A stretch of DNA of 37,600 nucleotides. Source: a virus. The stretch is taken from IMG/VR virus record IMGVR_UViG_3300047365_000335, positions 1 to 37,600 of that record, one strand, 5' to 3'. Both the position numbers and the translations under genes were made by a program. Shown here piece after piece: positions 103 through 30,636 of this stretch. The notes under the pieces were generated by a model, which did no database searches, was not told the DNA's origin, and worked only from the letters and a program-made list of their open reading frames with translations. Positions within the stretch are counted from its first letter, which is position 1. Each line of letters begins with the position of its first letter.

Positions 103-750
103 GTGGCAGTAACAAGAATTGATCAATTCATGACACAAATCGGTGCTAAAGGCGGAATGTCGCTGACATCGGGATTTGATGTTGAATTTAATTTTGCTGG
201 CAAGAATTTAGAAGCAGTAAAACAATTTTATCAAGGTCAAGATAAAGAAATTGTAACAATGTTGTGCGATGAAGCACAACTACCCAATGTGCAATCTGCT
301 GTAGCACAAATTAATGGTAGGCATTTAGGAGAAGGTCCAGTATATTATCCACATACGAGAATTTTTACAGATATTAGTTTAGGATTTTTATTAGATGCAA
401 AAATGATACCATTAAAGTTTTTTACTGCTTGGTACAATACTATTTTTGGTGAGGGTCCAGATTTTCGACATGATGGCACGATCGATGGTGCCCTAAGTGC
501 AGATTTACCCGGTAAAAGTAATCGAATTAATAGAATTAATTACATGGATGAATATACATGTACGGCAAAAATTATTAAAACTGAACCAAATCAAAATGCT
601 GCTAATGGTAGAGCACCAATAGCATATTACTTGGAAAATTGTTACCCGTATTCTATTGACGCAGTTCCTTTGGCTTATGGAACATCTCAGGTAACAAGAG
701 CGACAGTTAATTTTTACTATACAAGGCATCAAGTTGCATACGGAAATTGA
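103..750 (+). CDS. tail tube / baseplate tube-initiator family protein (gp19/gp54-like)
   Basis: This 215-residue protein looks like the T4 gp19 tail-tube fold family, which also includes the tube-initiating baseplate protein gp54. The N-terminus MAVTRIDQFMTQI, the SLTSGFDVEFNF strand and the C-terminal strand ATVNFYYTRHQ fit a small beta-rich tube protein. Because a gp26-type baseplate gene follows, a gp54-like tube initiator at the baseplate-tube junction seems more likely than the bulk tube protein, but this is inference from context. The start is GTG at 103, since no ATG in frame precedes the conserved-looking N-terminus. A late promoter-like octamer lies just upstream. No catalytic motif, signal peptide or membrane segment is visible. 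Confidence 0.7.
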   Translation: MAVTRIDQFMTQIGAKGGMSLTSGFDVEFNFAGKNLEAVKQFYQGQDKEIVTMLCDEAQLPNVQSAVAQINGRHLGEGPVYYPHTRIFTDISLGFLLDAKMIPLKFFTAWYNTIFGEGPDFRHDGTIDGALSADLPGKSNRINRINYMDEYTCTAKIIKTEPNQNAANGRAPIAYYLENCYPYSIDAVPLAYGTSQVTRATVNFYYTRHQVAYGN

Positions 751-843: not shown

Positions 844-1557
844 ATGGCATTACCAACCCTTGGTTACCCAACTTATGAGTTAGAGTTACCATCTACAGGA
901 AAAACTATAAAATATCGTCCATTTTTAGTTAAAGAAGAAAAAGTTCTTTTAATTGCGCTTGAATCTCAAGATGAAAAGCAAATTGTTAGCGCAGTAAAAG
1001 ATTTAATTAAAAATTGCGTTATTTCTAGAGTTAAAGTTGATACACTTCCTAGTTTTGATCTTGAATATTTGTTCTTAAAAATTAGAGCAGCATCAATTGG
1101 CGAATCAATTGTTTTAACAGTTACTTGCCGTGATGATAATGAAACCAAGGTAGAGGCAATCATCAATATTGATGAAGTTGAAGTTATAAAACCTGAGGGG
1201 CATGATAAAAAAATTATGTTTGATGATAACTTTGGCATTATCATGAATTATCCGAGTATGAAGCAATTTATTGAACGTGAATTTCTTCAGAAAGATATGC
1301 AAACCGATGAAGTGTATAGTTTCATTTCTGAATCTATTGAGCAGATTTTTCAAGGTGAAGATGTATATGATTCTTCTACTACATCAAAAAAAGAGTTTCG
1401 TGAATTTGTCGATAGTTTGACTACAAAACAATTTGAAAAAATTCAACAATTTTACGCAACTGCTCCAAAATTGTCTCATACATTCACCGTAATTAATCCT
1501 AATACCGGTAAAGAATCTGATTACACAATTGAGGGACTACAGAGTTTTTTCGCATAG
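844..1557 (+). CDS. gp26-like baseplate protein (T4_baseplate family), likely frameshift donor
   Basis: The 237-residue product resembles the T4 gp26 / 'T4 bacteriophage base plate protein' family, which acts in baseplate hub assembly. Family-like features are the N-terminal strand LGYPTYELELPSTG, then YRPFLVKEEKVLLIALES, and a helical C-terminal half. The gene ends at a -1 slippery heptamer (T TTT TTC, 1545-1551) two codons before its stop. The -1 frame is open without a stop into the 49-residue frame that follows, giving a predicted 299-residue long form. That layout matches the G/GT tail-assembly chaperones of other phages, so the protein may be a chaperone for the tape measure rather than, or as well as, a hub part. 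The family assignment is fairly firm; the frameshift is inferred. Confidence 0.75.
   Translation: MALPTLGYPTYELELPSTGKTIKYRPFLVKEEKVLLIALESQDEKQIVSAVKDLIKNCVISRVKVDTLPSFDLEYLFLKIRAASIGESIVLTVTCRDDNETKVEAIINIDEVEVIKPEGHDKKIMFDDNFGIIMNYPSMKQFIEREFLQKDMQTDEVYSFISESIEQIFQGEDVYDSSTTSKKEFREFVDSLTTKQFEKIQQFYATAPKLSHTFTVINPNTGKESDYTIEGLQSFFA
1532..1551 (+). other. candidate programmed -1 ribosomal frameshift site
   Basis: In the gp26-like frame the codons read agT TTT TTC, which is a canonical X XXY YYZ slippery heptamer at 1545-1551. A Shine-Dalgarno-like AGGGA (1532-1536) sits 8 bases upstream, close to the spacing of the stimulatory element in E. coli dnaX. After slippage the reading continues through RIALFQNNLEGYYR directly into the ATG at 1593, in frame and without a stop. 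Confidence 0.65.
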
Positions 1558-1592
1558 CACTCTTTCAAAACAATTTGGAGGGGTATTATAGA

Positions 1593-1742
1593 ATGAACTT
1601 TGCTTTGATGCAGTATCATAAATATAGTTTGACTGAGATTGAGAATTGGTTGCCTTGGGAAAGGGAAATTTACACAACTTTCCTTATGCAATATCTTGAA
1701 GAAGTCAAACAAAAACAAGAACAAGCGAAAGCAAGCAGATAG
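1593..1742 (+). CDS. small frame downstream of gp26; probable C-terminal extension made by frameshift
   Basis: This open frame encodes 49 residues if started at ATG 1593 (MNFALMQYHKYSLTEIENWL and on to a Lys/Gln-rich end). It is predicted helical and carries a WLPWEREIY motif typical of the 'T' part of tail-assembly chaperone pairs. A good Shine-Dalgarno (GGAGGGG, 1577-1583) allows separate translation, but the frame stays open upstream to the slippery site at 1545. Both a free 49-mer and a 63-residue extension of gp26 are therefore possible. The stop overlaps the GTG start of the next gene (TAGTG). A gp51-type hub-assembly role is possible by position only. Confidence 0.65.
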   Translation: MNFALMQYHKYSLTEIENWLPWEREIYTTFLMQYLEEVKQKQEQAKASR

Positions 1743-4714
1743 TGGCAAATATCTCTAAAACATATAGTGGTGATTTTACTGGTTTTATTGCCGGTAAATT
1801 GTTGAATGCCGCTGGAATGGCGAAGGGAGAGAGTGATAGAAGGGAAGTAGATAATTTAGAAAAAGCAAAACCAGGATCTTTATTTGCAAAAGCACTACAA
1901 AGTGAGTTTGGTGGTGATTTGTATAGTAGAACTCTGGGTAATTTTGATCCCCGGAAAAGTGCGGGTGAAACAGATAGATCTTCATCTAAAGAAGGTAGAT
2001 ATAAAGCACAATTTAAAGATGTGCCATCAGAGACAAAATCTCAATTAGAAGATGCTGAACGTGAACTTTTTGCAGAAGATGATTCTATTCCAGTAAAAAA
2101 TGAAGATGCTAGAGAGCATATTTCAAAACTTATTGGTGTCGGGTTAGATGTAAAATTAATTCAGTTAGATTCTAGAATTGGTAAAATTACTAATCATGTA
2201 TCTGCTGTACAAGAAAATGCTGCTAATACACAAAAATTACTTGTAGATCAAACTGAATTACTTGAGTCAAAGTTTGATCAAATTTTAGAAATTTTTTCTG
2301 GTCAGGTAAATTACCAAAAAGAACTTTCTGATCAGGCGAAAGTAAAAAGAAGAGAAAGTGAATTAGAACAGGAGAAAGATTTATCTACTACAAAAGCAAT
2401 TGAAGGAATTGGTGGAACTGGAAGTAAAGGAAATTTAACTTCATCAATTTTTAATAAATTTTTTGGTAGATATTTAAAAAATTTAAGAAGGAGAGTTACA
2501 TCTAAAGTTTTTGGGAGAAAAGGAGCAAACAAACCAAGAGTAAGACCTCGTAGATCTTTAGGGAAGTCGTCTAAAACTGGTAAACAAGTTGCCAGTCAAA
2601 TTGGCGATAAAATTTCGGGTAAATCTGGAGCAAAACTTCTTTCAAAATCTGGAAAAACTGCAGCAACTAGAGGTCTAGGTAAATTTGCTAAATTTATTCC
2701 GGGATTGAATATAGCAGTTGGTCTTGGGGAAGCTGCTTATAGATTCTCAAGAGGTGATACAGTCGGCGGGATTATGAGTTTGGGATCTGCCATTCCTATT
2801 GTAGGATGGGGATTCACAATTGCTGATATTTCACGTGATCTTGGATATGATCCATTAAATACAATGCCATCAGGTCAACAATATGAGAGGGGAACATCAC
2901 TCACTGAACCTGGAACTGCAATGCTTCATGGCACTGAAGCAATCTTAGGTGAAAATGATAGGATGTCTTCGCAGCAGGATGCGATAAACCGAGTTGGATC
3001 TACGTTAGTTTCTTCATCGGTTTCCTTTGCTGAAGCTTCAGGAATGGGTTCAGAAGTTAAATCTCAACTTAAAAGTTCTGGATTATCATTTGACATTGTA
3101 AATTTTCCAGTTGTATCTAAAATTGGTCGTAAATCTGGTTCAATTTCGGCATTAAGAGATTCTAGTATTGAAGATCTGTTCAAAATAAAAAGAAATGAAC
3201 CAGAGATAGAAGATATAGAAGAAGATATAGAAGAAGAAGAAGAAGAAGATCCTAATAATCCTAGATCTGCCAGACCTAGACGGAGATCTCGAAGAAATAC
3301 TTCAGGACCTAGATTAACTCAGAGATTGGGAAATCAATCTCAAATATGGAATTCCAATATGGCAGCAACTGCTGTGACATTTGATGCTGCACAAGGAAGA
3401 GATCGATCTGGAGAACCGGGAGTTGACTTTAGTTATAATAATATTTACAAAAACTATGCTATGTTTGATGGTGAGGTTACATATGTGGGACCTTGGGGTG
3501 CGGGATATGGAGGAACCGTTCATATTAGAAGTGTAGACCCTTCTAATAATAATAAAGAATTTGATTCTTTATACGCACACTTTGCACCTGGAACACAAAC
3601 AGTTAACGTAGGAGATCAAATATCTGCTGGTCAATATCTTGGACCAGTTGGATGGGTAGGACCCTGGAACAGTGGTAAGGCAGCTTCTGGTGCTGGTAGT
3701 ATGGGCGGACCACACACTAGTTTAGATTTTTATGAACCAATTGATCAAAATACTGGTGAATTAGTAGATTATTCAAATTATAGATCATTACAGCAACATG
3801 TTCTAGACATGGAGGGAAAAAGTCCTACTTCTAGTTCAAAAGTTAAAAACTCTACTAATAAATCTGCTAAACAAACTACTCAAGGTGCGAATCAGAATGG
3901 TAATACTATGGGACTTAAAAGACGTAGTATTGGCGGATCTGCAAATCGAGTAAAGTTTAAAAATTCTATAGAAAGACGTACATATAATGCATTAAACAGC
4001 AAAGGGTTTACTGCAGCACAAATTTCTGCTATTATGGCAAATTTTGATATTGAAACTGGTGGATATCGTACAATGTATCAAGATAGCGGTGGTCCTGGTC
4101 GTGGTTTAGCACAATGGGAAACTCCTGGACGTTGGGATCAAGCTTTAGAATGGTATGAATCTCAAGGTAAAGATCCTAAAAAACTTATTGATGACGTTGA
4201 AGGTCAAATTGATTGGATGATGCATGAATTCACAAACCATCCAACTGATAGTGAAGGTAGACCATCTCTTCCATATGGGTTTTCGTATTCTTTAAATGAT
4301 TGGAAAAGTTCTTCTAAAGATCCAGTAGAACTGGCAAAATCGTGGATGAATTGGTACGAAGCACCTGGGACTCCTCATACAACGCAGAGATTTGCTAGTG
4401 CCGTCAGATATAGTAAAATGCTACCTAGATCTGGCGCTGAAATAGATGCCCAAATTAAAAAAAATGATGCGGATAAGTTGAAATATAAAAATGATCCGGC
4501 GGGATACTTTGGATCTATACCAAACACCCGTCCTAGTTCTCTTACTGCAAGTAGTAATATAGCAGAAGAAATGGAAGAAGATTCTATGGTTCAATTGGTT
4601 TACGTCATCAACAACACTATTGCGGCGTCTCCTCTTCCTCCTGTTATAACTAGTAGAAACGTAGCAAAAAATAATTACGTTGATCAATATCGCATGGCAG
4701 TTTTAGGGGCATAA
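1742..4714 (+). CDS. tail-associated lysozyme/structural protein with degenerate M23 domain
   Basis: This is a 990-residue virion protein. Its N-terminus (MANISKTYSGDFTG) is nearly the same as that of the next gene (MANISQTYSGDLTT), which supports the GTG start. Residues about 130-220 look coiled-coil, about 230-300 are very basic, and about 310-365 are Gly/Ala-rich and hydrophobic. An acidic run of Glu lies near 487-503. Residues about 543-667 resemble an M23/LytM peptidase (VDF, YAHF, GPHTSLDF), but the first metal His is replaced and the H-x-H motif is broken. Residues about 748-893 resemble the phage tail lysozyme family (ANFDIETGG, GLAQWE), with Glu771 the likely catalytic acid. Probable role: hub or tape-measure-linked protein that opens murein during DNA entry. 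Domain calls are by eye. Confidence 0.75.
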   Translation: MANISKTYSGDFTGFIAGKLLNAAGMAKGESDRREVDNLEKAKPGSLFAKALQSEFGGDLYSRTLGNFDPRKSAGETDRSSSKEGRYKAQFKDVPSETKSQLEDAERELFAEDDSIPVKNEDAREHISKLIGVGLDVKLIQLDSRIGKITNHVSAVQENAANTQKLLVDQTELLESKFDQILEIFSGQVNYQKELSDQAKVKRRESELEQEKDLSTTKAIEGIGGTGSKGNLTSSIFNKFFGRYLKNLRRRVTSKVFGRKGANKPRVRPRRSLGKSSKTGKQVASQIGDKISGKSGAKLLSKSGKTAATRGLGKFAKFIPGLNIAVGLGEAAYRFSRGDTVGGIMSLGSAIPIVGWGFTIADISRDLGYDPLNTMPSGQQYERGTSLTEPGTAMLHGTEAILGENDRMSSQQDAINRVGSTLVSSSVSFAEASGMGSEVKSQLKSSGLSFDIVNFPVVSKIGRKSGSISALRDSSIEDLFKIKRNEPEIEDIEEDIEEEEEEDPNNPRSARPRRRSRRNTSGPRLTQRLGNQSQIWNSNMAATAVTFDAAQGRDRSGEPGVDFSYNNIYKNYAMFDGEVTYVGPWGAGYGGTVHIRSVDPSNNNKEFDSLYAHFAPGTQTVNVGDQISAGQYLGPVGWVGPWNSGKAASGAGSMGGPHTSLDFYEPIDQNTGELVDYSNYRSLQQHVLDMEGKSPTSSSKVKNSTNKSAKQTTQGANQNGNTMGLKRRSIGGSANRVKFKNSIERRTYNALNSKGFTAAQISAIMANFDIETGGYRTMYQDSGGPGRGLAQWETPGRWDQALEWYESQGKDPKKLIDDVEGQIDWMMHEFTNHPTDSEGRPSLPYGFSYSLNDWKSSSKDPVELAKSWMNWYEAPGTPHTTQRFASAVRYSKMLPRSGAEIDAQIKKNDADKLKYKNDPAGYFGSIPNTRPSSLTASSNIAEEMEEDSMVQLVYVINNTIAASPLPPVITSRNVAKNNYVDQYRMAVLGA

Positions 4715-4717
4715 TAA

Positions 4718-7039
4718 ATGGCAAATATTTCCCAAACATATAGCGGCGATTTAACTACGTCTATTGCTAGTAAAATTTTTGATATCATTAGTGATGCCAG
4801 AGTAGAGAAAAGTAAAGCACAGGAAGAAGCAGACAAATATGGAGTAGATGTAAACTTTACTCCGGGTGAGTTTACTGCTAGGTCTGCTAGAAATGATTTA
4901 ATTAAAAATACTTTAGGTAGTAGGTTTGTTCCTAAAACAAAATATCCTGATTTACTTGCAAGAGGGCAGGCAACATCAGACCCTTTAATGGGAACTCCTG
5001 TTCACCTTAGAAAACTTCCGGAATATCAACAACTTGCTTCAGAAGAAGAGAAAAAATTTCGATCAAGATCTAAAGCAGTTCCTTCGAGAAAACCTTCTAC
5101 TTCACCTTCCGGTTCTTCATCTACAAAACCAGAATCTACTACTTCTGACCCTATAAAGGTTCAGGATAAAAAACTGGGTGTATTTCTTGCTGCAGTTGCG
5201 AAATCTTTAGCTGCAAATGTTGCTTCCATTAACTCCAGAATTGATGAAACTGAGTCTGGTGTTATAGAAGCAAAAGAAGGAATATTTGGAACAATCAAAC
5301 AATTAGAACAAAATTCTGAAATACTCGAAACAAAATTAGATGCAATTATTGACGCATTAAGAGAACAGAATACAAATGCTCAAAAATCGGAGGATAATGC
5401 ACAGTCTCAGCAAAGAGAAGGAGAACTAGAAAAAGAGTCAGATCTTTCTTCTGTTGAGCGCATTATCAAACCAGATGAAAAGCAATCTGATATTATTCAA
5501 TTAAATCTTTTAGATGATATAAGAGAGAATACACAAGAACAGCAGCAATCTATTCCCGATCCTTGGGGAGACGAGGGATTTGAGCGTGGTGGTATTGTTT
5601 CTGGTCCTGATAGTGGATACTTAGCTAAGTTGCATGGGGATGAAATGATCGTCCCACTTGATAATAATTATACTCAAGGACAACCTAGTGCTATTGATGG
5701 AAAAATTGCACAAAAACCAGGAATGCTGGGTAATTTGCCAAAATTTGAACGTGGCACACAAACACCTAGTTTTACTGAATTACCAAAAAATGATAAAATA
5801 AGTTTTTCAAATATCCCCAATAATAATGATAATAATAAAGAATCTGCAGAGATGATAAAATCATCTGAAGATTTAATGAAAGCGATGGATTTTACTATTC
5901 AATCGACTGGTATTATGAATATGATGGCAATGACTAGTGCTATCAATAATATGGGTGGATTAGCAGGCGAAGCAGCAGATCAATTAAAACAAATTATAAA
6001 TCCCATTGCTTCTCATTTTGGTGTAAGTAATAGGATTGCAACTTCTGTAATCCGACAAAAATCTGCTGAACAAAAAGCAGAAGAAAGAAAAGAGAAAACA
6101 AAATCATTTTCATCTGATGTAGAATCCAGAGGAAGAGCATGGTGGGATCCTCTTGGATTGTTTACTGGTCGTGATGGCACAGGAGGAAGTAATTCGGTAA
6201 ACTCAACCACTTATAATCGTACCGGCGGATATCGTGTTGGTGGGGATACCTATAATAGAAAATCTGGTACAGGTGGACCTCTTGGGTTCTTACCTGGAAC
6301 TGGTAGAGTTATGACTCCATCAGCTGGCGACAACGGTAGTTATATGCAAGATGGTAGAACGGTGCAAAAATTCCTTGGAATGGAAGTACCATTTTCTGCT
6401 AAGAGGAGTGGATATACTCCCGAAGACGTTCAAAGATATAACAGTCAGGATTCTGGAACTCAAATGCAGACATATGATGCAGTTCCTCATCCAAGTAGGA
6501 AAGAACTTGCAGAAAAAATGCGTCGGGAATATAATATTAATATAAGTGACCCTGCATATAGAACTCGTAGTGTACAACCACAGGTTACTCCCAGATCATC
6601 AAGACAATCAACAGGTAACAGAAGATTAGATGGTGCAATCCGCAACGCTCAAGATATTGGAGATATGACAGGCACTCGTGGGTTGATGGATCAAACTGCG
6701 ACAATCGCTGAGAAAACACAAAGGCGAAATGATATCTTAAGACAGTATATGCGTGATGCAGGTATGTCTGGTGCTGATGAAAGTATGAATATGTATGGTA
6801 AACCTATGGGAGATCAATCAAATTTAACTTCCCCGGATTATAAACGACAAACTATTGCTCAACTTGATCTTTCTTCTAAAGATCAAGCACTATCTAGATT
6901 GAATAAATCAAGTACTCAACCTGACCCCATCATCATAAATAATCAAACTGCGGAAGATTTCTCTGCTGACATTCCTCGTTCTCATATTGCAAATATGGGA
7001 GATTCTGGTTTATCTGAACTTTATCCTTCTCCTGCTTGA
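4718..7039 (+). CDS. tape-measure-like tail/baseplate structural protein
   Basis: This 773-residue protein starts 3 bases after the previous stop and shares that gene's N-terminal motif. A Ser/Thr/Pro-rich linker (about 120-150) is followed by a helical, coiled-coil-like region (about 150-240). At about 288-312 it carries FERGGIVSGPDSGYLAKLHG then DEMIVPL, a motif common in tail tape-measure proteins (GG-V-GP-x-G-Y-x-A-x-LHG-x-E-x-x-VPL). The rest is low in hydrophobics and rich in Gln, Asn and Ser. Placed between a gp26-type chaperone and a gp27-like hub, it may be the functional equivalent of T4 gp29 (tape measure), possibly sharing that job with the preceding protein. Function is inferred; its structural nature is likely. 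Confidence 0.6.
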   Translation: MANISQTYSGDLTTSIASKIFDIISDARVEKSKAQEEADKYGVDVNFTPGEFTARSARNDLIKNTLGSRFVPKTKYPDLLARGQATSDPLMGTPVHLRKLPEYQQLASEEEKKFRSRSKAVPSRKPSTSPSGSSSTKPESTTSDPIKVQDKKLGVFLAAVAKSLAANVASINSRIDETESGVIEAKEGIFGTIKQLEQNSEILETKLDAIIDALREQNTNAQKSEDNAQSQQREGELEKESDLSSVERIIKPDEKQSDIIQLNLLDDIRENTQEQQQSIPDPWGDEGFERGGIVSGPDSGYLAKLHGDEMIVPLDNNYTQGQPSAIDGKIAQKPGMLGNLPKFERGTQTPSFTELPKNDKISFSNIPNNNDNNKESAEMIKSSEDLMKAMDFTIQSTGIMNMMAMTSAINNMGGLAGEAADQLKQIINPIASHFGVSNRIATSVIRQKSAEQKAEERKEKTKSFSSDVESRGRAWWDPLGLFTGRDGTGGSNSVNSTTYNRTGGYRVGGDTYNRKSGTGGPLGFLPGTGRVMTPSAGDNGSYMQDGRTVQKFLGMEVPFSAKRSGYTPEDVQRYNSQDSGTQMQTYDAVPHPSRKELAEKMRREYNINISDPAYRTRSVQPQVTPRSSRQSTGNRRLDGAIRNAQDIGDMTGTRGLMDQTATIAEKTQRRNDILRQYMRDAGMSGADESMNMYGKPMGDQSNLTSPDYKRQTIAQLDLSSKDQALSRLNKSSTQPDPIIINNQTAEDFSADIPRSHIANMGDSGLSELYPSPA

Positions 7040-18722: not shown

Positions 18723-18762
18723 ATCTGAGATCAGATCTTAGATACCGCAGCGGTTGAGTAAT

Positions 18763-21700
18763 ATGGCTTTGACTAGACTTGATAACCTTATTAGTAGCAA
18801 AACTGGTAAGTATTTGTATGTCTCCCCCGATGATTTCAATGCTTCGGATGAGTTGAACAACAGGGGAAATTCTCCTATTAGACCATTCAAGTCAATTCAG
18901 CGAGGATTCTTGGAGATTGCAAGGTATTCATACCTTCCTGGTCCAGACAATGATCGTTTTGACCAGTTCACGATCATGTTGATGCCTGGTAATCATTATA
19001 TTGATAACCGTCCAGGTCTAGTTGATACTAATGGCATTGATGCCTTCTCATTTAATCAAGCATTAAACGAGTGGGAAGATAATTCCAACTTGGATATCTC
19101 TGATCCAAATAATAAATTATATCTTTTTAACAATACTGAAGGTGGTGCAATTCTACCTAGAGGTTCATCTCTTGTAGGTTATGACCTTCGTAGAACCGTT
19201 GTACGTCCTTTATATGTTCCAGATCCTGCAGATAGGTTAGAGAAGCGTTCTGCCATCTTCAATGTAACTGGTGCATGTTATTTCTGGCAATTTACCATCA
19301 AAGATGGTGATCTAGAACCTTCTTCTCCACTTTATGATAAGAATGAGGGTGTTGGTAAAGTATATTATCAGAATGGATATTGGGATCAATTAGCAGTTCC
19401 TAACTATTCTCACCACAAACTGACTGTGTTTGAATATGCAGACAAAGAAGAATTAGGACTATATTATAGAAAGATTGCTAAGGCATTCTCTGCATACCAA
19501 CCAACAATTGATGATCCAGGTGAATTCACTGAAAGAATTCAGGAGACCAGAATTGTTGGTCCTCTCTCAGACATTCGCTCTATTGAAAGTATTAAGTGCG
19601 TAGATTCCTCTCCTGCAGGAACTATCACTGTTGAGATTACAACAAAAGTAGATCATGGTTATTTTAAGAACCAGTTTATTGCTATTGAAGGTAATGGTCT
19701 AGATGAGCAACTTAACGGTACTTTCCCTGTTAGTGTAATTGATTTAGTCGATTCTAGAAAGTTTCAATATCAAATTGCTGGAACAGTTGCTGCTTTAGGA
19801 ACTACTGCTGGTCTTGTAAGCGGAACCACTTACACTTCTCAGAATGGACTAAGTGCAAACGCGGTAGTTAAAGCGGAAGTTGACTCAGTTGAATCCGCGT
19901 CTCCGTATGTCTTTAACTGTTCTATTCGCTCTACCTGGGGTATTTGCGGAATCTGGGCAAATGGACTGAAGGCAACTGGATTTAAATCCATGGTTATCGC
20001 TCAGTATACGGGCGTTTCGCTTCAGAAGGATGACAGAGCATTCATTCGTTATGACGAGTATACTAACACCTGGAATCAAGCATCACTAACTGATGCATTT
20101 GCAACTACTCCATATCACACCAAGGGTGATGCATATTGGAAGGATGATTGGAGAAACTTCCACGTTCGTGCATCAGATGACGCATTCATTCAGAACGTTT
20201 CTATCTTCGCTGTTGGTTTCGCAGATCACTTCCTAATGGAAAGTGGTGGTGATATGTCTATCACCAACTCCAACTCTAACTTCGGTAACACATCACTTCA
20301 TGCTATTGGTTTTAAAGGATTTGCCTTTAACCAAGACAAAGGTGGTTACATCACGGATATTGTTCCACCTCAGATTGTTCCTGAAACAACGGGAAATACT
20401 AAGAAAAACGCATACTACACTCTTGATGTTAAGGCATCTAACGATCCAAATAATCATAGTAAAATCTATATTGGTAATGATGATGGGTACGATCCTGCTA
20501 AGAGACCTGCAGCATCCATCGATGGATTTAGAGTTGGTGCAAGAACTGATGAGAAACTATATGTAAAACTAACTCCAAGATCTGCTGGTTCGGATAATAT
20601 CTTCAATGCAACCTTAACTCCTAACGGATTTAAGAAATTTACTGCTACTGCTGATATTTTAAATCCAAGTAACATCGCGATTAATAATAAAGATCTTGAT
20701 GCTGCCAATAGAATTGAAGAAAATAAAAACTTTATTGCCCATGAAGCATATGGGTATATTACTGGAAAATATCCAAGTATTACAATTAAAGAAAATATCA
20801 CGATTGAGAAATGTCGTCGTGATATTGGATATCTAATTGATGCTACTATTCAAGACCTTCGTCTTGGTGGTAATATCAATACGATTCAAGCAGCAGAATC
20901 TTATTACGTTGGTAATAATCTTTCTTATATTACTGGAGAACTCACAGAAACATTAGAAGGATATAACTACGCTAGAGATTTAGCAATCGCAGCAATGCGT
21001 AACTTCTCATATTTGCGTCAAGGTAGTGCATCTACTGCAGGGGCATCTCTCGTTGATGTTGGAGATACCTCAGGCATTGTTCAGGGTATGCTCATCGCAG
21101 ATTATGATCCATCTGAGTTTACCAATGGAAAATTGAATGTAAATGCAACTAGACCTGCATCTCCAGTAATTCCTGATGGCACATATGTAAAGAATATTGT
21201 CAATTCTTCTTTCATTGAAATTGGTCAGAAAGCAGTATTCTCGGAAAAGAAACTAGTATCTGATCGTTATGGTGATGCAAAAGACCAGATTCTTGCCAAT
21301 AAAAACTTTATCGCAGCAGAAGCAGTTGCTAGAATGCATCTGGATTTCCCTGGATTTTCTGTTGCTGGTGGCGACCAGAACTGTATTGACGACGTTGTAG
21401 ATGTTTTAGAAGCAGTTTCTGAAAACACAGCATTTGGCGGAAATGCTGAAACGTGGGATGCTGCTTATCTTTATGAAACTGGTAACCATATTGCAGGAGA
21501 AGAGCAAGAATCACTTCGCGTATTTAAATATGCCAGAGATATGGCAATTCAAGTACAACGTAATGAAGATGTATTTGTATTTGGTACACATGGTTTAACG
21601 CAAACTAAAGATACCACTATTACATATGAAGCACCTGAGGTAGTCACTGATCGTAATGGTGATGCTCGTAATCTAATTCTTGCTAACAAAGAACTTATTG

Positions 21701-24700
21701 CTGAAGAAGCAGTAGCAAGAATGCTCACTACTTATCCTTCATTTACGGTTACCGGTGGTAATCAAAACTGTATTGATGATGTTGTAGATCTTTTAGAAGC
21801 AATTGCTGACAACGTTGCTTATGGTGGTAATGATAAGACATGGGATGCAGCATATTCTTATGTAAAGGGTGCTCACGTATCTGGTGAAGAAGCAGAGACA
21901 AATTATGTTTTTGAGCAAGCAAAAGAAATGGCTGCTCAGGTAATGAGAAACCAGAAGATCCTTGCTATTGGATCTCATGGTGAGACACAGACATTTGACA
22001 CCACGATTACATATGATATCCCCGATCCGGTTATTGATCGTAATGGCGATGCTCGTAACTTAATTATTTCCAATAAAAATATTATTGCGAACGAAGCATA
22101 TGAAAGAATGCTTGCAGAAAATCCTGGATTTGTTAGTCCGTCAGGAAATTCACAAGATTGTATCGATGATATTTTAGATTTTGTAGAGGAAGTTTCATAT
22201 AATCTGGCATTTGGTGGCAATGATCGTGTATGGGACACTGCTAATCTATATGTTCAGGGTGCTCATGTAGCAGGCGAAGAAACACAAACAATTCAATGTT
22301 TTGAATATGCTAGAGACCTAATGGTCCAAGCAATGAGAAATGAGGTTATTCTATCAGTAGGATCTCATGGTTTAACTCAAGCATTTGATAATACAATTAC
22401 CTATGATCTTCCTGCACCTGTTGACAATAAATCTGGTGATGCTAAGAACTTAATTCTTGCAAATAAAGATTTTATTGCAGAAGTTGCATTTGGAAGAATG
22501 CAAGTTCAGTATCCAACTTTTGCTGTCCCAACAGGAAACAATGTTGATTGTATTGATGACATTAAAGATATAATTGAAGTTGTTTCTCATAACCTTGCCT
22601 TTGGCGGCAATGATCGTGTATGGGATGCTGCAAACTTATATGCAACTGGTCAACATGTTTCTGGTGAAGAAGCTCAAACTCTTTATGCTTTTGCTCAAGC
22701 AAGAGATATTATGGTTGAGGTTATGAGAAACGAAGATGTAACCGTTGATGGTCATACATCTTTAACTCAATCTAAAGATTTGACAATAACTGTTGATAGT
22801 GCTAATCCTACTTGTGCTTCGCAGGCATCTACGATTGCTTCATTAGTACAACTATTAACAAATACAATTTCTGCTGGAAGCACTCTTTATGGTGTTACCC
22901 GTACAGTATCGTTGGGATCTTGTAACGATGTGAGAGATGCATTAACAACTCTTACTAGTATCGTAACTACTGCAATTACTACTCCTGCTTCACTTAATGG
23001 TATTGTTAGATCTGTTTCTGTCGGATCTTGTGAGGATGTAAGATCAACAATCAATACTCTATTCGCAATTGTTCAAAATGCGGTCATTACTCCTTCTACA
23101 CTTTCAAATATTGGTAGAACAATATCTAATGGATCTTGTCAGAATGTAACTTCTGCAATCACAACGTTATTTAAAATTCTTACTGATACTATTGATAATC
23201 CTGGTTATCTGGAGTCCATTGAGAGACAAGAATCTCCACTTGGATTAGCATTTGGACCTTCTGTTAATGCTAATGCAACTAGCAGCAATTTGTATCTGTA
23301 CTTTACGATGACTTCTGGTACATATACCAGTGAGTATTCGCCAACAGTTGATGAAACTATTACTCAAGATACTGCATATCCCGAATGTGTTAATCAGGCA
23401 TCTGCCATTCGCCAGTATTTTGCTAATATTACGACTATTATTCAGACCGGTCTGAATACTATTCCTAGAAATGAACCAACCCAGTTGACTACAGAACTTG
23501 CTTCTAGATCAACTATATGGACACTAAGAGATTCTACTGGAACTAACCCACATAATCTAGAAACTGGTACTCCAGTAAGATTAGTTCCACGTCCAAGATA
23601 TGATACGGTAACTAATCAATATGTTGATGTTGATAAGAGAAAGGTTAGATTGCCTAGTGGATTTGATACTAATGAAAAATATTATGTAATTGCACCCGCA
23701 AGAACAACCAAACCAGAAGATTATTCTGGTGTTGGCGCATTCAATGGTAGCGACCAAACTAAATTGATGCTTGCAAGTAGCAAAGAGAATGCTGCTGCTG
23801 GTATCTACATCCACTCTGCTGAAGTTGAAGCAATTGACTCAGATATTGAAATTGATATCTATCAATTTGTTTTGGATGATAAGTACGATCTGCATCAATA
23901 CAATTGTATTTTAGATATATCTGTAAATTCGGGTATTCGTACTGATGTTCCTCATATTTTTGATGTTCCTTTTGCAAGTATTCCTGGACATAGAGTATTC
24001 TTTAGAAAAAATGAAGGCGGTAGTTTACCATTAGTTGGTGCTGCATATTCTCAAGATCCTAGTGTTGCTGATTCTAACGGCAGAATAAAGGAAGATGCAT
24101 CATTCTGGGCAAGATACCAGAACGAAAAAGTATTTACAATTCACTCTACGAAAGCGGATGCAATTGCAAATGTAAATCCAATTACATTCCAACCTGGAAC
24201 ATATGATTTTGCGACATTTGCTGATAAGCGTGAAGCGCCAATGCGCTTTGATCCGACATATCAAAACCCAGATACTAATCCTCAAATTTATGGTAAATGG
24301 TATTTGCAGTGTGAAAATCATTCAGAGAATTCTAACGATCCTGAATATAATTACAATATCCTCACAAGATTGCATGAGAATACTTATAGCGATTTATCTG
24401 GTCAAGATAAGACAAATGATACCTGGTTTGAAAGAATTAAGGATGAGCGAGATAAAGATGAGCGTATCTATCGCTTACGTTATGTTATCCCTAAGTATCT
24501 CCAGGCAGTTCGTGATCCTATCAACGGATTCTCGCTCAAAGTCCGTAAAGATGAAACTAGAAAACTTTTACCACAGAAACTTGTTCTCAGACCAGTCACT
24601 GGTTCTGTAACTAAAGCAAGATTCTTTAACCCTGTACAGGCAAATGAAGTAATTGGTTATACAAAACAAGATTTTCTTGATAATAGTTTAAATGAAGAAG

Positions 24701-27700
24701 CTGCATACGATCCATATAAACGTGACATTGTAGGTGGCACACAATATGCCAAGATTATTGAGACACAAAACTATGTTTCAATGACAATTCAATCTGCCAG
24801 ATACTTTATCGATGGATCTAGTGGTGATGAACTTCTGGAAATGGATGTCTATGATTTAGGTGTTACTAATTTAGGATTACTAAATGAGACATTTACAACA
24901 GTTAAAATTACTGCTCCTCAAGGTGGTAACTTTGTTGCTGATAGAACTCAATCTTTAGATGCTACTAATAGAATTGAATGGTTTGGTAATTCTTCCGGAT
25001 ATGGTTATCTGCATGCAGTACTTAATGTTCCTGGAACTTCCGAGTGGCACTTAATCATTAAGGGTATATCTGGTAAGATTGATTACTCTGAATTTGATAA
25101 TATCAGATTCTCACAGGATGCGGTATTTGCTGATCTACTTGCAGATGAAGATTTTGGTAAGTCACTCTATATTAAAGATCTTATTGCAAAAGGTTATCCT
25201 GAGTACTATTACAGACAAAAAGGAGCATCAATTTATACGGTAACTCCTGGTGATATCATTACTGATGATGCTAACATTCAATACTATGTTGAATCTGTAA
25301 CTGATGCAGGAGAACTAGATGATACTTTCTATGTCTTCGATTCTTTAGAAATTCAGCGTCGTATTTATGGTCAGCAAGATGGTATTTACTATCTAACTGC
25401 TATACGTGGTAATGTATCGCCATTCCCAACAGGTGCAGGTAATCAGGGCAACTTCAAAAATATGAAGTTCTCTCAACCAATTAGTAAATTATACCCACTA
25501 AACTATAAGAATGATCCTCTTTGGTTCAAGCAATTAGATGTTAATGCTATTGACCCACCGCAAACATATTCTGCTGCTGATAACTATACTCACGGTCTTG
25601 TAACAGTTAACGACTTCAAGGGTTCGATGACCCGAGAGATGGTTGAGGACTTTATCTCTCAAGGTGCATTGTCTAATAATACTTACACCCAAGTATCCTC
25701 TGTAGTAGACAATAGAATTAAAGCACAGAAAGGTAACGCAACTTCTGGTTCAGAAGATCGCCGCATTCCTATTGCTGGTGACAGCACTGTAATGTCAGAT
25801 ATGCGTCTCTATGTTGAACTTAGAAGACCCTCTATTGCTCGTGCAGGTAACCACACGTTTGAGTACCTTGGATTCGGTCCTGGTAACTATTCAACAGGTC
25901 TTCCTGCCCGTCAGGAGATCGTTTTAACACCAACTCAGGACTTCTATGCACAGTCCAAGAAGCAAGATGGTGGTTTAGTATTCTACACCGGTCTAAACTC
26001 TAATGGTGACCTATACATTGGTAACCGTAAGATTGATGCTATCACAGGTGAAGAAGAGTTCTTAGAATCTGCACAGTTAGTTGATTCGGATGATGATAAC
26101 GAGGATGTAGGAAATCTCGTTACTACTTTTGATACTCCAGTAACATTTAATGAGTATATCACTGTAAATGGCGGTGATCAACAAGATAAGACGAGTACAT
26201 TTAACTCACCTGTTACTATAAACGTTCTTGGTAGAGTTAGAGATTTTGCATTAAATGTTATCTCGAATGTATCACCAAGTGATGGTGATGATGGTTCACT
26301 TGATAAAACTCAGCAGTTCCTCAATCAAGATACTTTTGGTGATATTGTAATTGCAAGAAACCGAGTTGCTGCTTCTGTATTCCAGTTTAATCCACGTGGT
26401 TCAAATGGTGCTGCACAAGGTTACAAGATTCAAAATCATGTAGTTGGAACTGAAGGATCTAATTACACTCCAAACCAGAGTTCGCTTTATAGCACTGGAT
26501 TAGGAACTGCTCTTGATCCTCTTCAGGCAGTTCAGTATGGTAATGCTGGCGCACCTTTCTCGGGGGACATTCTTCTCAAAGGTAGTGAAGTCGGTGTTAC
26601 TGGATCTTTGGGGTGGATTTATTCAAACTTCTTTGAATCTATTCCTTCTGCCAACATTCAGAATCTATTCATGAATGGAAGTGTAGTTATTACAATTAAC
26701 TGGGGCAACAACCTTAAAAATAAGCAGGTTGGCGTTACTTCTGGTTCTCAAATTAGAATCTCTAACTTCAGTGATAGCGGATTTAACGGCAAATGGCAGA
26801 TAATCTCTAACGGATTTAATCCAGAAGCTACTAGTTGTCAGATTGCAATTCTTGAAAATAGAGGAAATGTAGCAAATGATAATCCACGTTTGTGGTCTTC
26901 TGAAATTGCTAATAATTCTGATGTAAGAATGGAATTTTCCAACTCTGCATGGAAGGAAGTAGGTGTTCTAGGATCCGAAACTTTAAGAACCGATACTAAT
27001 AATATTGGTAATTACAAGTTAGGTGTTAACACTGTAGCAAGATCCGAGCATGAGGCATGGAAAACTGGATTTGTTGATCCACTTACTGAACCACGTGCAA
27101 ACCTTGACGTTGTTGGTACTGCATTCATTAGTGGTAAGACAATCCCGAATTATCTTGACCACACTGTATATGCAAATAGAACAGAAACTGCTGAAAATAA
27201 TGCACTTCTAGTTGGTGGTGATAGTGCATCTCCGGATAATGAAGCAACTTTCCGCGTTGCTACCAGCAATGGTGGTCGTGTTGGTATTAACGTAACTAAT
27301 ATTGAATTAGATAGATCGTTGGTTGTTGATGGTCTATCTAGATTTACTGATGATGCTCGTTTTGAGCATGATATTGAAGTTAATGGTGATGACGGTGCAA
27401 CTGCTGAGATAAGAACTTCGCAGACAACAGGTACATTTAATCTAGTTACAGATTCTACATTTACTGGCACACTTAATATTGGTAACAAAGTAAGTGATCT
27501 GTATGTTCTTAATACTAGTACAGATAAGCAGAGAACTTATCTTGGAAATGCATCTACTGAAAGTTATATCTGGTTAGGAAATACTCCTGATACTAGTAGT
27601 AATATTTCTCAGATTATAGTTGGTGGTGCATATGATAATAACGAAACCTTATCATATACCCTAATTGGCAGTAAAGCATTCAAAACTGCTGGAGATTTCC

Positions 27701-30636
27701 AGTTAGGAACTAGAAGAGGTCTTACTGATACTGTTAAGTTGTCAACTACTGCAGGTATAGTTGAATTTTTCTCTGGTAACTCTGCTACAACTAAAATTGA
27801 TTTTGCTACCAATGCTTCTGACATTACCATTGCTGGTCAAGGTGGAGATACAAGAATTAGAAATAATCTAATTGTTGATTCTACTGCTACGTTCAACTCT
27901 GATGTTACTTTGTGTGGTGGAGTTGCTTCTTACTCATTTGTAGCAAATAGAGGACAAATTGGTTCTACTGTAATTGGTCACACTAGTGGCATTCTAGGAA
28001 ACAATTTGTTCAACTCTAATGTTGATATTATTAGTATTGCTAGGAAAAATACTGCTGATGCAGAATACAATGCTGTAGATACTTCCGGTAGCGGTACTTG
28101 GGGTGGTTCTGTATTCCAAAATGAAATCACTACGATTGGTGGAACACCAATTATTCAACCTCAGGTTCTACCTGCTCTATCTGGTAATCAGTATTACTTA
28201 CCAATTAAGAATAAACCAGTTGATGCTGCAGATGCTCAGTATTTTAACGAAAATGATATTTTATTGATTGATACGCCTACAGTTGGAGCTAGGCATCCAG
28301 AATTTGTTAAAGTTGTCTCTCTACCAAGAATCAATACTGCTCCATTCTTCTTAGTAGTTGAGCGTTTACCATTTGGAACATTTACTTCTACTAGAAGTGA
28401 TCATGGTGATACTACACCGATTTACAAGTGTAATGTTCAGTTTAATTCTACTTGGATTACTCAAAATATTGATAATTCTGGAAATGAAGACAATGTTTAT
28501 CTTGCTCAATTTGGTGGAACTATTGCCCTTGAAGATTATGTAATTATTTCTCGTGATGACGGAACTCCATCTGGAGATGGTGTTGATGATGCAGGTGAAG
28601 TACTTAAAGTTAAGACATTAATCGATCAAGTTGCTAAGAAATTTAGAATTTCTGGTGATTGTGATTCTTCTGATGGAGATGTGTTTGTAGTTAATTCTGT
28701 AACTGGAGACACCACTATTAAGGGTGATGTTATTATTAATAATGGTTTAACTATCAATGGTGGATGTGATTCTCCAATACGTGGAACAATTACTGGATCT
28801 ATCACTGGTACTTATAAGGATGTTGCATCAGAATTCATAACTGCAATTTCTGATGCTGATATTGCAAATATTGAAATTGGTGATTTAGTTAAATTTGATC
28901 CTGCCGAGAACTATACTAGATTTAGTATCTACCCAAGAACACGTATCAATGAGATTAGATATGCAACTGACAACAACACCATTGTATTAAATAGAAGATT
29001 AGAGGTTGATATAACATCTACTGTAAAGGTAATTGTTTATAAGAATGAAGAGTTTGTAATCACTAACAACAAAGGACAAACTGGTTTCTTCTATGATACT
29101 TGCAACTCTGAACTTGAAATTGGTAATCAGGCAAGGAGATTTGATATTAGTAGAGTATATCCAGATGATGAAACTCCCGCTACTACAGTATCTTCATATG
29201 AAAATATTACATCTGATGTTAGGGTATATTCTTATTGGGTAGATCCACTAACAACTAACGCAGGTGGTCCAACTAGCACTCTTAATGCATCTGCAGCAAC
29301 TGGTGCTATTTCTGGATCTGTTTATTTAACAGTTGCAGAACTTGGAAATGATAATGGTCGATTTGCTATTGATGATTTAATTATTGTTGGTGAAACTTCT
29401 GATATTAGTCAGAATGGATTGGATGGCAATACATGGGAGATCATGAAAATTGCTGCTGTTGATGCACCAAGTAATACTTTAAGATGTTTGCCTGCTCAAG
29501 AGGGAACAAGTGCCAGAGCATTGGGCGATTACCCTGCTTCAACTACAAGTGTCATAAGAATTCTCAAGCATCCTGAGAGTTCTGGTTTATATGATATTGA
29601 TCTAAGATCTCGTAGTGGAACTGGTAGTTTTGTATCAGCAATTATTAGTGACGGTCATATTGTACAACAGAAACTTGATTACTCCAACTGGGTACGTTTT
29701 GTTGATGTAAGAAACAATAGCAAAGATGAATGGTTCTTTGTTAATGGTGGATTGTTTGGTAAGTATCATTCACTAATAATGAATGATGCTATCCAGGTTG
29801 GAGATGTTCCATATAGAACTGGATCTCTAAAACTGAATGAGGATCTTAAATTACTTGGTGGTAGCATTCTTGTAAGTGATTCTGTTAATAAGACACCAAT
29901 TCTGTATGTTAACAATGATGATGGTCATGCTGATCACCCTGGAAACATTGAATTTAATGCTGGTATTGTTGGTAGAGGAGACATTAAACTCTACTCTGCT
30001 TCTTGTCCAGAAAGTGACTCAATCGGCGCATGTGATCCAACATTCGCTGTTGATCTTGACGGTGATGTTTTAGCTGGACAGAGTTTAACCATTCGTGGTG
30101 CAGCATTAGAAATTCCACCTAAAGTACCAAAACTTGATCTTTTAAATCTAGGACCCAATGGTGCTAATACATTTACTGTAAACCAAGATCAATCAATTGA
30201 TGCATTTGGACTTACAAACTTCTATACATCATCTGGTGGTAGACACGCTAGATATGTAGCGAGTGGATCTGATCCTTCTGCTAAGTTCTTAACTCCAAAT
30301 GTTCAATATTTTGCAAATGTCGATCAAGGTGATGCATTAATTCTATATCTACCAGAGAATCCTCAATCTGGTGATACAGTTTCTGTCATTGAAGTTGGTG
30401 GAAATCTAACTTATGATACATCACTAATCATGAGAGCACAGGGAATCGGAACTAGGGTTCAGGGAGATTCTACTGGTACTACAATTGGTATTGGTGGAAC
30501 TACACCTTATTCTGCTGGTGAATTGATTGTACAAACACCAAATGCTGGATTTACTCTTGTCTACCTTGGTGGCACAGATTCAAATGGAACAATTGTTTCT
30601 TCAGGAGTACAAGGTTGGTGGCTCAAGGAGGTTTAA
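18763..30636 (+). CDS. giant tail-fibre / baseplate structural protein
   Basis: Started at ATG 18763 (MALTRLDNLISSKTGKYLYV), 3957 residues; a TTG at 18754 would add three. The first ~500 residues look like a right-handed beta-helix (FTIMLMPGNHYIDNR, GGAILPRGSSLVGYDLRRTV). Residues about 645-760 hold a degenerate copy, and about 833-1346 four tandem copies, of a ~129-residue unit. Residues about 1346-1488 hold three ~45-residue GSC repeats. The rest is beta-rich with fibre-type strands (TTKIDFATNASDITIAGQGG, FAVDLDGDVLAGQSLTIRGA). No catalytic motif was recognised. Probable role: a long peripheral baseplate or side-fibre component. It is followed after 3 bases by collar-fibre genes and preceded by a late promoter. 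Confidence 0.75.
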   Translation: MALTRLDNLISSKTGKYLYVSPDDFNASDELNNRGNSPIRPFKSIQRGFLEIARYSYLPGPDNDRFDQFTIMLMPGNHYIDNRPGLVDTNGIDAFSFNQALNEWEDNSNLDISDPNNKLYLFNNTEGGAILPRGSSLVGYDLRRTVVRPLYVPDPADRLEKRSAIFNVTGACYFWQFTIKDGDLEPSSPLYDKNEGVGKVYYQNGYWDQLAVPNYSHHKLTVFEYADKEELGLYYRKIAKAFSAYQPTIDDPGEFTERIQETRIVGPLSDIRSIESIKCVDSSPAGTITVEITTKVDHGYFKNQFIAIEGNGLDEQLNGTFPVSVIDLVDSRKFQYQIAGTVAALGTTAGLVSGTTYTSQNGLSANAVVKAEVDSVESASPYVFNCSIRSTWGICGIWANGLKATGFKSMVIAQYTGVSLQKDDRAFIRYDEYTNTWNQASLTDAFATTPYHTKGDAYWKDDWRNFHVRASDDAFIQNVSIFAVGFADHFLMESGGDMSITNSNSNFGNTSLHAIGFKGFAFNQDKGGYITDIVPPQIVPETTGNTKKNAYYTLDVKASNDPNNHSKIYIGNDDGYDPAKRPAASIDGFRVGARTDEKLYVKLTPRSAGSDNIFNATLTPNGFKKFTATADILNPSNIAINNKDLDAANRIEENKNFIAHEAYGYITGKYPSITIKENITIEKCRRDIGYLIDATIQDLRLGGNINTIQAAESYYVGNNLSYITGELTETLEGYNYARDLAIAAMRNFSYLRQGSASTAGASLVDVGDTSGIVQGMLIADYDPSEFTNGKLNVNATRPASPVIPDGTYVKNIVNSSFIEIGQKAVFSEKKLVSDRYGDAKDQILANKNFIAAEAVARMHLDFPGFSVAGGDQNCIDDVVDVLEAVSENTAFGGNAETWDAAYLYETGNHIAGEEQESLRVFKYARDMAIQVQRNEDVFVFGTHGLTQTKDTTITYEAPEVVTDRNGDARNLILANKELIAEEAVARMLTTYPSFTVTGGNQNCIDDVVDLLEAIADNVAYGGNDKTWDAAYSYVKGAHVSGEEAETNYVFEQAKEMAAQVMRNQKILAIGSHGETQTFDTTITYDIPDPVIDRNGDARNLIISNKNIIANEAYERMLAENPGFVSPSGNSQDCIDDILDFVEEVSYNLAFGGNDRVWDTANLYVQGAHVAGEETQTIQCFEYARDLMVQAMRNEVILSVGSHGLTQAFDNTITYDLPAPVDNKSGDAKNLILANKDFIAEVAFGRMQVQYPTFAVPTGNNVDCIDDIKDIIEVVSHNLAFGGNDRVWDAANLYATGQHVSGEEAQTLYAFAQARDIMVEVMRNEDVTVDGHTSLTQSKDLTITVDSANPTCASQASTIASLVQLLTNTISAGSTLYGVTRTVSLGSCNDVRDALTTLTSIVTTAITTPASLNGIVRSVSVGSCEDVRSTINTLFAIVQNAVITPSTLSNIGRTISNGSCQNVTSAITTLFKILTDTIDNPGYLESIERQESPLGLAFGPSVNANATSSNLYLYFTMTSGTYTSEYSPTVDETITQDTAYPECVNQASAIRQYFANITTIIQTGLNTIPRNEPTQLTTELASRSTIWTLRDSTGTNPHNLETGTPVRLVPRPRYDTVTNQYVDVDKRKVRLPSGFDTNEKYYVIAPARTTKPEDYSGVGAFNGSDQTKLMLASSKENAAAGIYIHSAEVEAIDSDIEIDIYQFVLDDKYDLHQYNCILDISVNSGIRTDVPHIFDVPFASIPGHRVFFRKNEGGSLPLVGAAYSQDPSVADSNGRIKEDASFWARYQNEKVFTIHSTKADAIANVNPITFQPGTYDFATFADKREAPMRFDPTYQNPDTNPQIYGKWYLQCENHSENSNDPEYNYNILTRLHENTYSDLSGQDKTNDTWFERIKDERDKDERIYRLRYVIPKYLQAVRDPINGFSLKVRKDETRKLLPQKLVLRPVTGSVTKARFFNPVQANEVIGYTKQDFLDNSLNEEAAYDPYKRDIVGGTQYAKIIETQNYVSMTIQSARYFIDGSSGDELLEMDVYDLGVTNLGLLNETFTTVKITAPQGGNFVADRTQSLDATNRIEWFGNSSGYGYLHAVLNVPGTSEWHLIIKGISGKIDYSEFDNIRFSQDAVFADLLADEDFGKSLYIKDLIAKGYPEYYYRQKGASIYTVTPGDIITDDANIQYYVESVTDAGELDDTFYVFDSLEIQRRIYGQQDGIYYLTAIRGNVSPFPTGAGNQGNFKNMKFSQPISKLYPLNYKNDPLWFKQLDVNAIDPPQTYSAADNYTHGLVTVNDFKGSMTREMVEDFISQGALSNNTYTQVSSVVDNRIKAQKGNATSGSEDRRIPIAGDSTVMSDMRLYVELRRPSIARAGNHTFEYLGFGPGNYSTGLPARQEIVLTPTQDFYAQSKKQDGGLVFYTGLNSNGDLYIGNRKIDAITGEEEFLESAQLVDSDDDNEDVGNLVTTFDTPVTFNEYITVNGGDQQDKTSTFNSPVTINVLGRVRDFALNVISNVSPSDGDDGSLDKTQQFLNQDTFGDIVIARNRVAASVFQFNPRGSNGAAQGYKIQNHVVGTEGSNYTPNQSSLYSTGLGTALDPLQAVQYGNAGAPFSGDILLKGSEVGVTGSLGWIYSNFFESIPSANIQNLFMNGSVVITINWGNNLKNKQVGVTSGSQIRISNFSDSGFNGKWQIISNGFNPEATSCQIAILENRGNVANDNPRLWSSEIANNSDVRMEFSNSAWKEVGVLGSETLRTDTNNIGNYKLGVNTVARSEHEAWKTGFVDPLTEPRANLDVVGTAFISGKTIPNYLDHTVYANRTETAENNALLVGGDSASPDNEATFRVATSNGGRVGINVTNIELDRSLVVDGLSRFTDDARFEHDIEVNGDDGATAEIRTSQTTGTFNLVTDSTFTGTLNIGNKVSDLYVLNTSTDKQRTYLGNASTESYIWLGNTPDTSSNISQIIVGGAYDNNETLSYTLIGSKAFKTAGDFQLGTRRGLTDTVKLSTTAGIVEFFSGNSATTKIDFATNASDITIAGQGGDTRIRNNLIVDSTATFNSDVTLCGGVASYSFVANRGQIGSTVIGHTSGILGNNLFNSNVDIISIARKNTADAEYNAVDTSGSGTWGGSVFQNEITTIGGTPIIQPQVLPALSGNQYYLPIKNKPVDAADAQYFNENDILLIDTPTVGARHPEFVKVVSLPRINTAPFFLVVERLPFGTFTSTRSDHGDTTPIYKCNVQFNSTWITQNIDNSGNEDNVYLAQFGGTIALEDYVIISRDDGTPSGDGVDDAGEVLKVKTLIDQVAKKFRISGDCDSSDGDVFVVNSVTGDTTIKGDVIINNGLTINGGCDSPIRGTITGSITGTYKDVASEFITAISDADIANIEIGDLVKFDPAENYTRFSIYPRTRINEIRYATDNNTIVLNRRLEVDITSTVKVIVYKNEEFVITNNKGQTGFFYDTCNSELEIGNQARRFDISRVYPDDETPATTVSSYENITSDVRVYSYWVDPLTTNAGGPTSTLNASAATGAISGSVYLTVAELGNDNGRFAIDDLIIVGETSDISQNGLDGNTWEIMKIAAVDAPSNTLRCLPAQEGTSARALGDYPASTTSVIRILKHPESSGLYDIDLRSRSGTGSFVSAIISDGHIVQQKLDYSNWVRFVDVRNNSKDEWFFVNGGLFGKYHSLIMNDAIQVGDVPYRTGSLKLNEDLKLLGGSILVSDSVNKTPILYVNNDDGHADHPGNIEFNAGIVGRGDIKLYSASCPESDSIGACDPTFAVDLDGDVLAGQSLTIRGAALEIPPKVPKLDLLNLGPNGANTFTVNQDQSIDAFGLTNFYTSSGGRHARYVASGSDPSAKFLTPNVQYFANVDQGDALILYLPENPQSGDTVSVIEVGGNLTYDTSLIMRAQGIGTRVQGDSTGTTIGIGGTTPYSAGELIVQTPNAGFTLVYLGGTDSNGTIVSSGVQGWWLKEV
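20698..22800 (+). repeat. tandem ~129-residue coding repeats in the giant structural protein
   Basis: Four units at 21259-21645, 21646-22032, 22033-22422 and 22423 to about 22800 are each 387-390 bases. Each has GDA-(R/K)-(N/D)-x-I-(L/I)-(A/S)-NK, then NCIDD or DCIDD, FGGN-x-x-x-WD-x-A, G-x-H-(V/I)-x-GEE, A-(R/K)-(D/E)-(M/I)-x-x-Q/E-x-x-RN and a final T-x-TIT. A degenerate unit (20698-21014) precedes them. The spacing is almost constant, which suggests expansion by duplication. Confidence 0.85.
22801..23230 (+). repeat. three short Ser/Thr-rich GSC repeats
   Basis: Three units of about 45 residues with pattern GSC-x-(D/N)VR/T, TL-x-x-I, (I/T)-x-x-P-x-x-L-x-x-I-x-R-x-(V/I)-S. The Cys occurs once per unit (GSCNDV, GSCEDV, GSCQNV). 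They follow the 129-residue repeats in the same protein. Confidence 0.7.

Follow-up and report, generated by a model that had tools for sequence, protein, structure and literature searches.

A translational frameshift in the tail genes was established as a general principle of dsDNA phages by Xu, Hendrix & Duda (2004), and a 2016 review stated that the principle holds in long-tailed phages "except T4" (PMC5009743). Of the two forms of the phage lambda tail assembly chaperone, the short one binds the tape measure, and the long one binds the tail tube protein with its extra domain (PMC5009743). Tail assembly chaperones of T4-like phages have since been identified (Vladimirov, Gautam & Davidson, 2022, Virology 566:9-15). 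The PRFect paper reports from that study that some T4-like phages use separate short and long genes, and a 2025 paper (PMC12846349) cites it for poly-T slippery sequences that lie in the TAC-N genes of T4-like phages. The latter paper also describes the Vandenendeviridae and Andersonviridae, in which a T-rich site ends TAC-N, the -1 frame is free of stops and the C-terminal domain has been wrongly annotated as a separate gene, all as in the locus treated here; unlike this locus, they have the motif GTTTTT and belong to different phage families (PMC12846349). Since T4-like chaperones and poly-T sites have already been published, the present locus adds a member to a known system, and the preliminary description went too far in suggesting that a frameshifted chaperone would be new for T4-like phages. 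Beyond what these citing papers report of the study of Vladimirov et al. (2022), the present analysis contributes evidence on how deep the conservation runs, on a GAG bias, on a 3' hairpin and on an exception in the Ackermannviridae.

The window, that is, the whole stretch of 37,600 nucleotides analysed (IMGVR_UViG_3300047365_000335), derives from a virus of the marine T4-like (cyanophage) type. It very probably specifies a tail assembly chaperone that exists in two forms, like lambda G/GT, and is produced by programmed -1 frameshifting, which would be a natural case of such frameshifting in phages of marine cyanobacteria. As in lambda, the -1 shift would occur late in the gene for the short chaperone and give a minor long form, and the gene order would be alike, with the chaperone following the tail tube gene and preceding long, possibly tape-measure-like genes. 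The slippery sequence of lambda differs. The tail tube gene (103–750, plus strand; PF23849, 1.2e-51) lies directly upstream of the gp26-like gene (844–1557, plus strand), the putative short form (TAC-N) of the chaperone, whose product of 237 aa falls in the T4 gp26 family (PF12322 T4_baseplate, 2e-71; phrog_150, 6e-76). Sequence searches matched no solved structure, and no Rfam family was matched. The PDB entry nearest to the AlphaFold model of the short form (pLDDT 86) is 2ob9, the HK97 tail assembly chaperone, a weak match (prob 0.94, E 0.41, TM 0.43 by target length). Weak when taken alone, this predicted likeness of fold points the same way as the chaperone reading, and together with the conserved signal and the homology to T4 gp26 and gp51 described below, it leads to a tail assembly chaperone of the G/GT type.

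The 3' end of the gp26-like ORF reads GAG GGA CTA CAG AGT TTT TTC GCA TAG and contains the slippery heptamer T_TTT_TTC (1545–1551, plus strand) in a register that suits a -1 slip. The heptamer had been placed two codons before the stop; its presence stands, and the distance needs correction, as one codon (GCA) intervenes between it and the 0-frame TAG (1555–1557, plus strand) that closes the short form in the window. The -1 frame opens after TGA 1530–1532, and direct reading bears out the claim that it continues past the gp26-like gene, free of stops from 1533 to TAG 1740–1742. The C-terminal extension (TAC-C; 1552–1742, plus strand) comprises 63 aa, with CGC 1551–1553 as its first codon, and the predicted frameshift product reads ...QSFF|RIALFQNNLEGYYRMNFALMQYHKYSLTEIENWLPWEREIYTTFLMQYLEEVKQKQEQAKASR.

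To assess conservation, 80 IMG/VR relatives were fetched, and 78 distinct gp26 genes, comprising that of the window and those of IMG/VR relatives (47–81% identical), were aligned by codon. The succession of NNT TTT TTC, one or two codons, a stop and then an open -1 frame is kept in all fetched relatives, and the 0-frame stop lies one or two codons past the heptamer in 77/77 distinct loci. The conservation of heptamer and open -1 frame, proposed earlier as a check, was found in 78/78 distinct gp26 genes and in distant groups as well. TTT and TTC, each present in 78/78, are the sole two invariant synonymous codons among 60 conserved columns, in which the median share of the major codon is 0.68; TTT and TTC are mixed in the other conserved Phe columns of the alignment. 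The wobble base before TTT TTC is also T in 78/78, across Ser, Asn, Asp, Ala and Gly codons, and the background frequency of T at the wobble position of the same codon families elsewhere in the gene is 65%. As the 78 genes are related, these counts are not independent trials, and the other columns of the same gene serve as the control. At the level of sequence, the comparison confirms that the conservation of the heptamer is not due to chance.

A run of six or more T, reaching T7 or more in some relatives, might also suggest transcriptional slippage there, rather than ribosomal frameshifting, as the source of the long form. Six T followed by C are, however, short for polymerase slippage, and position 7 is C in 78/78 cyanophage-type genes although a T there would leave the residue unchanged. 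The in-frame X_XXY_YYZ register, the SD-like element and the 3' hairpin likewise fit ribosomal slippage, and we regard a transcriptional origin of the long form as scarcely credible.

The signal for ribosomal frameshifting appears to extend to both sides of the heptamer. The putative SD-like 5' stimulator, GAGGGA (1531–1536, plus strand), is located 8 nt ahead of the slippery site; the AGGGA already recognized at this distance occupies 1532–1536. The Glu codon four places ahead of TTT is GAG in 64/72 cases, and GAG makes up 625/1914 (33%) of the Glu codons in the whole gene set, a bias at this column that an SD-like stimulator would require. On the 3' side, a stem-loop is predicted at 1559–1584 (plus strand), starting 7 nt past the heptamer and enclosing GGAGGGG (1577–1583), and the predicted fold of 1555–1624 reaches -15.4 kcal/mol (z -2.5). 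Over 77 loci, the 50 nt past the heptamer have a mean z of -2.5, with 68% below -2, and the other offsets tested gave mean z values of -0.0 to -1.5, except for the overlapping +4 offset. RNAalifold found no single RNA structure or register shared across all 77 sequences. Without a common structure, the hairpin was assessed by folding each sequence separately and by registers within lineages. Among the 13 closest sequences, hairpin register 41 pairs in 90% of cells and in at most 59% when slid, and the stem-loop carries a few compensatory changes. Acting as stimulators, the GAG-G element and the 3' hairpin would complete a standard -1 frameshift signal. The E. coli dnaX signal is generally known to be built in the same way, with an upstream SD-like stimulator, a heptamer and a downstream hairpin. 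The dnaX heptamer is A_AAA_AAG, the shift makes a shorter product and the protein is unrelated to the chaperone.

In all close relatives, the open -1 frame leads into a conserved domain of about 60 aa; with the slippery site, the open frame and the C-domain present in every distinct close relative, the initial proposal of a programmed -1 frameshift in a G/GT-like chaperone gains support. The core of the domain lies 21 codons past the shift in 76/77 distinct loci, the remaining one being on a truncated contig, and from 1593 onward the -1 frame of the window falls in phrog_634, "baseplate hub assembly catalyst" (2e-19). A possible independently started ORF of 49 aa (1593–1742, plus strand) begins within this frame at an ATG to which the preliminary description makes no reference. 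With GGAGGGG, a fair ribosome binding site, 9 nt ahead of this ATG, translation of part of the -1 frame could in principle start on its own in this phage. The two frames might be separate genes, the downstream one being translated from ATG 1593 through coupling or its own RBS as a small gp51-like protein and the slippery site being incidental. The small ORF does stand as a separate gene in public records (S-PM2 gp51, 57 aa; HTVC008M), a stop/start overlap occurs in the Vibrio phages K364 and D495 (see below), and some ATG precedes the core in 50/77 distinct loci. The positions of these ATGs are scattered, however, and one at the codon of 1593 is found in only 5/77 distinct loci, and for this reason it is not a conserved start; ahead of the core, 27/77 distinct loci have no ATG and 13 have no ATG, GTG or TTG. 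In Aeromonas 65.2, the first 22 codons of the -1 frame contain none of these three codons, which leaves a frameshift at the heptamer as the only evident route to the domain. Moreover, the conserved codons for Leu-Glu-Gly account for the GGAG, which is base-paired in the predicted hairpin, T4 gp51 carries a fused N-domain, and separate genes would leave both the frozen TTT TTC and the protein conservation from the heptamer onward unexplained. A separately translated small protein is thus highly improbable.

The work on T4-like chaperones is said to have found frameshifting conserved in several T4-like groups, with T4 using genes 26 and 51, which are divergent neighbours in the T4 genome. In our profile comparisons, the joined (frameshifted) product matched T4 gp51 at 7e-10 in an alignment that crosses the junction, while the half profiles both gave weaker matches, 1.5e-5 for the C part (to the gp51 C-terminus) and 0.008 for the N part. 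The match to T4 gp26 (3e-20) involves the N-domain, or short form, only, and shuffled controls stay above 0.05. In PHROGs, T4 gp51 and gp26 are both members of phrog_150, gp51 extending to profile position 280 of 282 and gp26 to 235, and gp51 falls in phrog_634 as well. These matches indicate that T4 has one gene for the short form and another for the long one. The window and the T4-like chaperones share the protein family and its pairing of a short form with a long one that bears an extra C-terminal domain; the two forms are separate divergent genes in T4, whereas the window has one gene and a frameshift. T4 gp26 and gp51 have been counted among the chaperones of hub assembly, gp51 is needed for assembly and absent from the virion, and published accounts of the make-up of the T4 hub, including gp26, contradict one another (PMC3004832). 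The cyanophage "baseplate hub subunit gp26" and "hub assembly catalyst gp51" can be read as one frameshifted tail assembly chaperone, and many public two-gene annotations would then need joining. A further arrangement was observed in a Klebsiella Slopekvirus (L149:2501-3795), in which the long, gp51-like gene immediately precedes gp26 and overlaps it on the same strand, unlike the divergent genes of T4.

In the proposed mechanism, most ribosomes would terminate at 1555–1557 and release the gp26-like short form (TAC-N). A minority would slip back by one base with UUU and UUC of U_UUU_UUC in the P and A sites (UUU to UUU, UUC to UUU), aided by pairing of the SD-like GAGGG with 16S rRNA and by the hairpin just downstream, and would read on to 1742, giving the long form (TAC-NC) with its extra C-terminal domain. 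Given the binding roles known from lambda, the same roles are assigned by analogy to the chaperone of the window: the short form may coat the tape measure protein, the C-domain of the long form may recruit tail tube subunits, and neither form would be expected in the finished virion. The sequence itself shows the conserved signal, the open frame, the conserved domain and the homology to T4 gp26 (short) and gp51 (long); from these we infer the occurrence of the shift, its efficiency, the roles of the two stimulators and the binding partners of the chaperone.

The same organization extends to distant phages of the T4 superfamily. T_TTT_TTC/T/A with an open -1 frame occurs in the KVP40-like phi-pp2 group and further KVP40 relatives, Aeromonas 65.2, Pseudomonas Astolliot and pf16, Stenotrophomonas Marzo, Caulobacter Cr30, Pseudoalteromonas XG4, Pelagibacter HTVC008M, Synechococcus BUCT-ZZ01 and marine loci, and Otagovirus and Menderavirus likewise keep the heptamer T_TTT_TTC/T/A and the open -1 frame. 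In Aeromonas 65.2 and the marine loci L121, L125, L127, L128, L132, L136, L138 and L140, the -1 frame opens exactly at the heptamer. An IMG/VR search with a KVP40-like gp26 returned 2 loci only, and one with the gp26 of Vibrio K364 returned none. Relatives with both frames that lack a slippery site or have stops between the frames, which had been named as evidence against the frameshift, were sought: the canonical heptamer is lost only in the Ackermannviridae and some Vibrio phages, and no inter-frame stop was found there either. In Stenotrophomonas IME-SM1 (L148:1039-1881), the annotated gp26 appears to continue beyond the usual stop and to enter a different frame of the C-domain region; a sequencing indel near the T run may be the cause, and this phage was left out of the comparison.

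The Ackermannviridae have GAR or CAG followed by ATT TTC ATY TAA at the site (L090, L093, L097–L114, L144) and keep the -1 domain in 18/18 loci, as well as in May, S118 and Ea2809. In several of these loci, the opening of the -1 frame lies immediately ahead of TTC, which leaves only a few bases for any shift. An unusual slip at this non-canonical site, which takes the place of T_TTT_TTC, might yield the long chaperone, possibly through a single tRNA at T_TTC; we offer this tentatively, at somewhat less than even confidence. A -1 domain behind the non-canonical ATT TTC site is possibly the less known part of the system. The Vibrio phages K364, D495 and 1.255 have CTT TTY at the site, and in K364 and D495 (L091, L094) the ATG of the C-domain frame overlaps the gp26 stop (TAATG), which suggests that frameshifting has been replaced by coupled initiation. 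If the Ackermannviridae slip is real, it would stand with the T4 split and the Vibrio overlap as several solutions to making short and long forms within one chaperone family.

The genes following the chaperone locus encode long tail proteins with no clear match to a tape-measure family. The first of them (1742–4714, plus strand) encodes a 990-aa tail protein in the tape-measure/hub position, with phage tail lysozyme and peptidase M23 domains (PF18013, 9e-22; PF01551, 3e-7). Its only tape-measure family match covers the lysozyme domain, and a tape measure identity is not claimed for it. The annotated tape measure lies two genes on in the Cr30 and HTVC008M relatives, and it is plausible that the following genes of the window include the tape measure. 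The ORFs 1742–4714 and 4718–7039, the latter of 773 aa, specify tandem long tail proteins that have their N-terminal 250 residues in common (28% identity, E 6e-16), the Pfam M23 peptidase and phage lysozyme domains being present in the first of the pair only. Further along the window, a single ORF with a listed TTG start (18754–30636) encodes 3960 aa, which is very long for this genome region.
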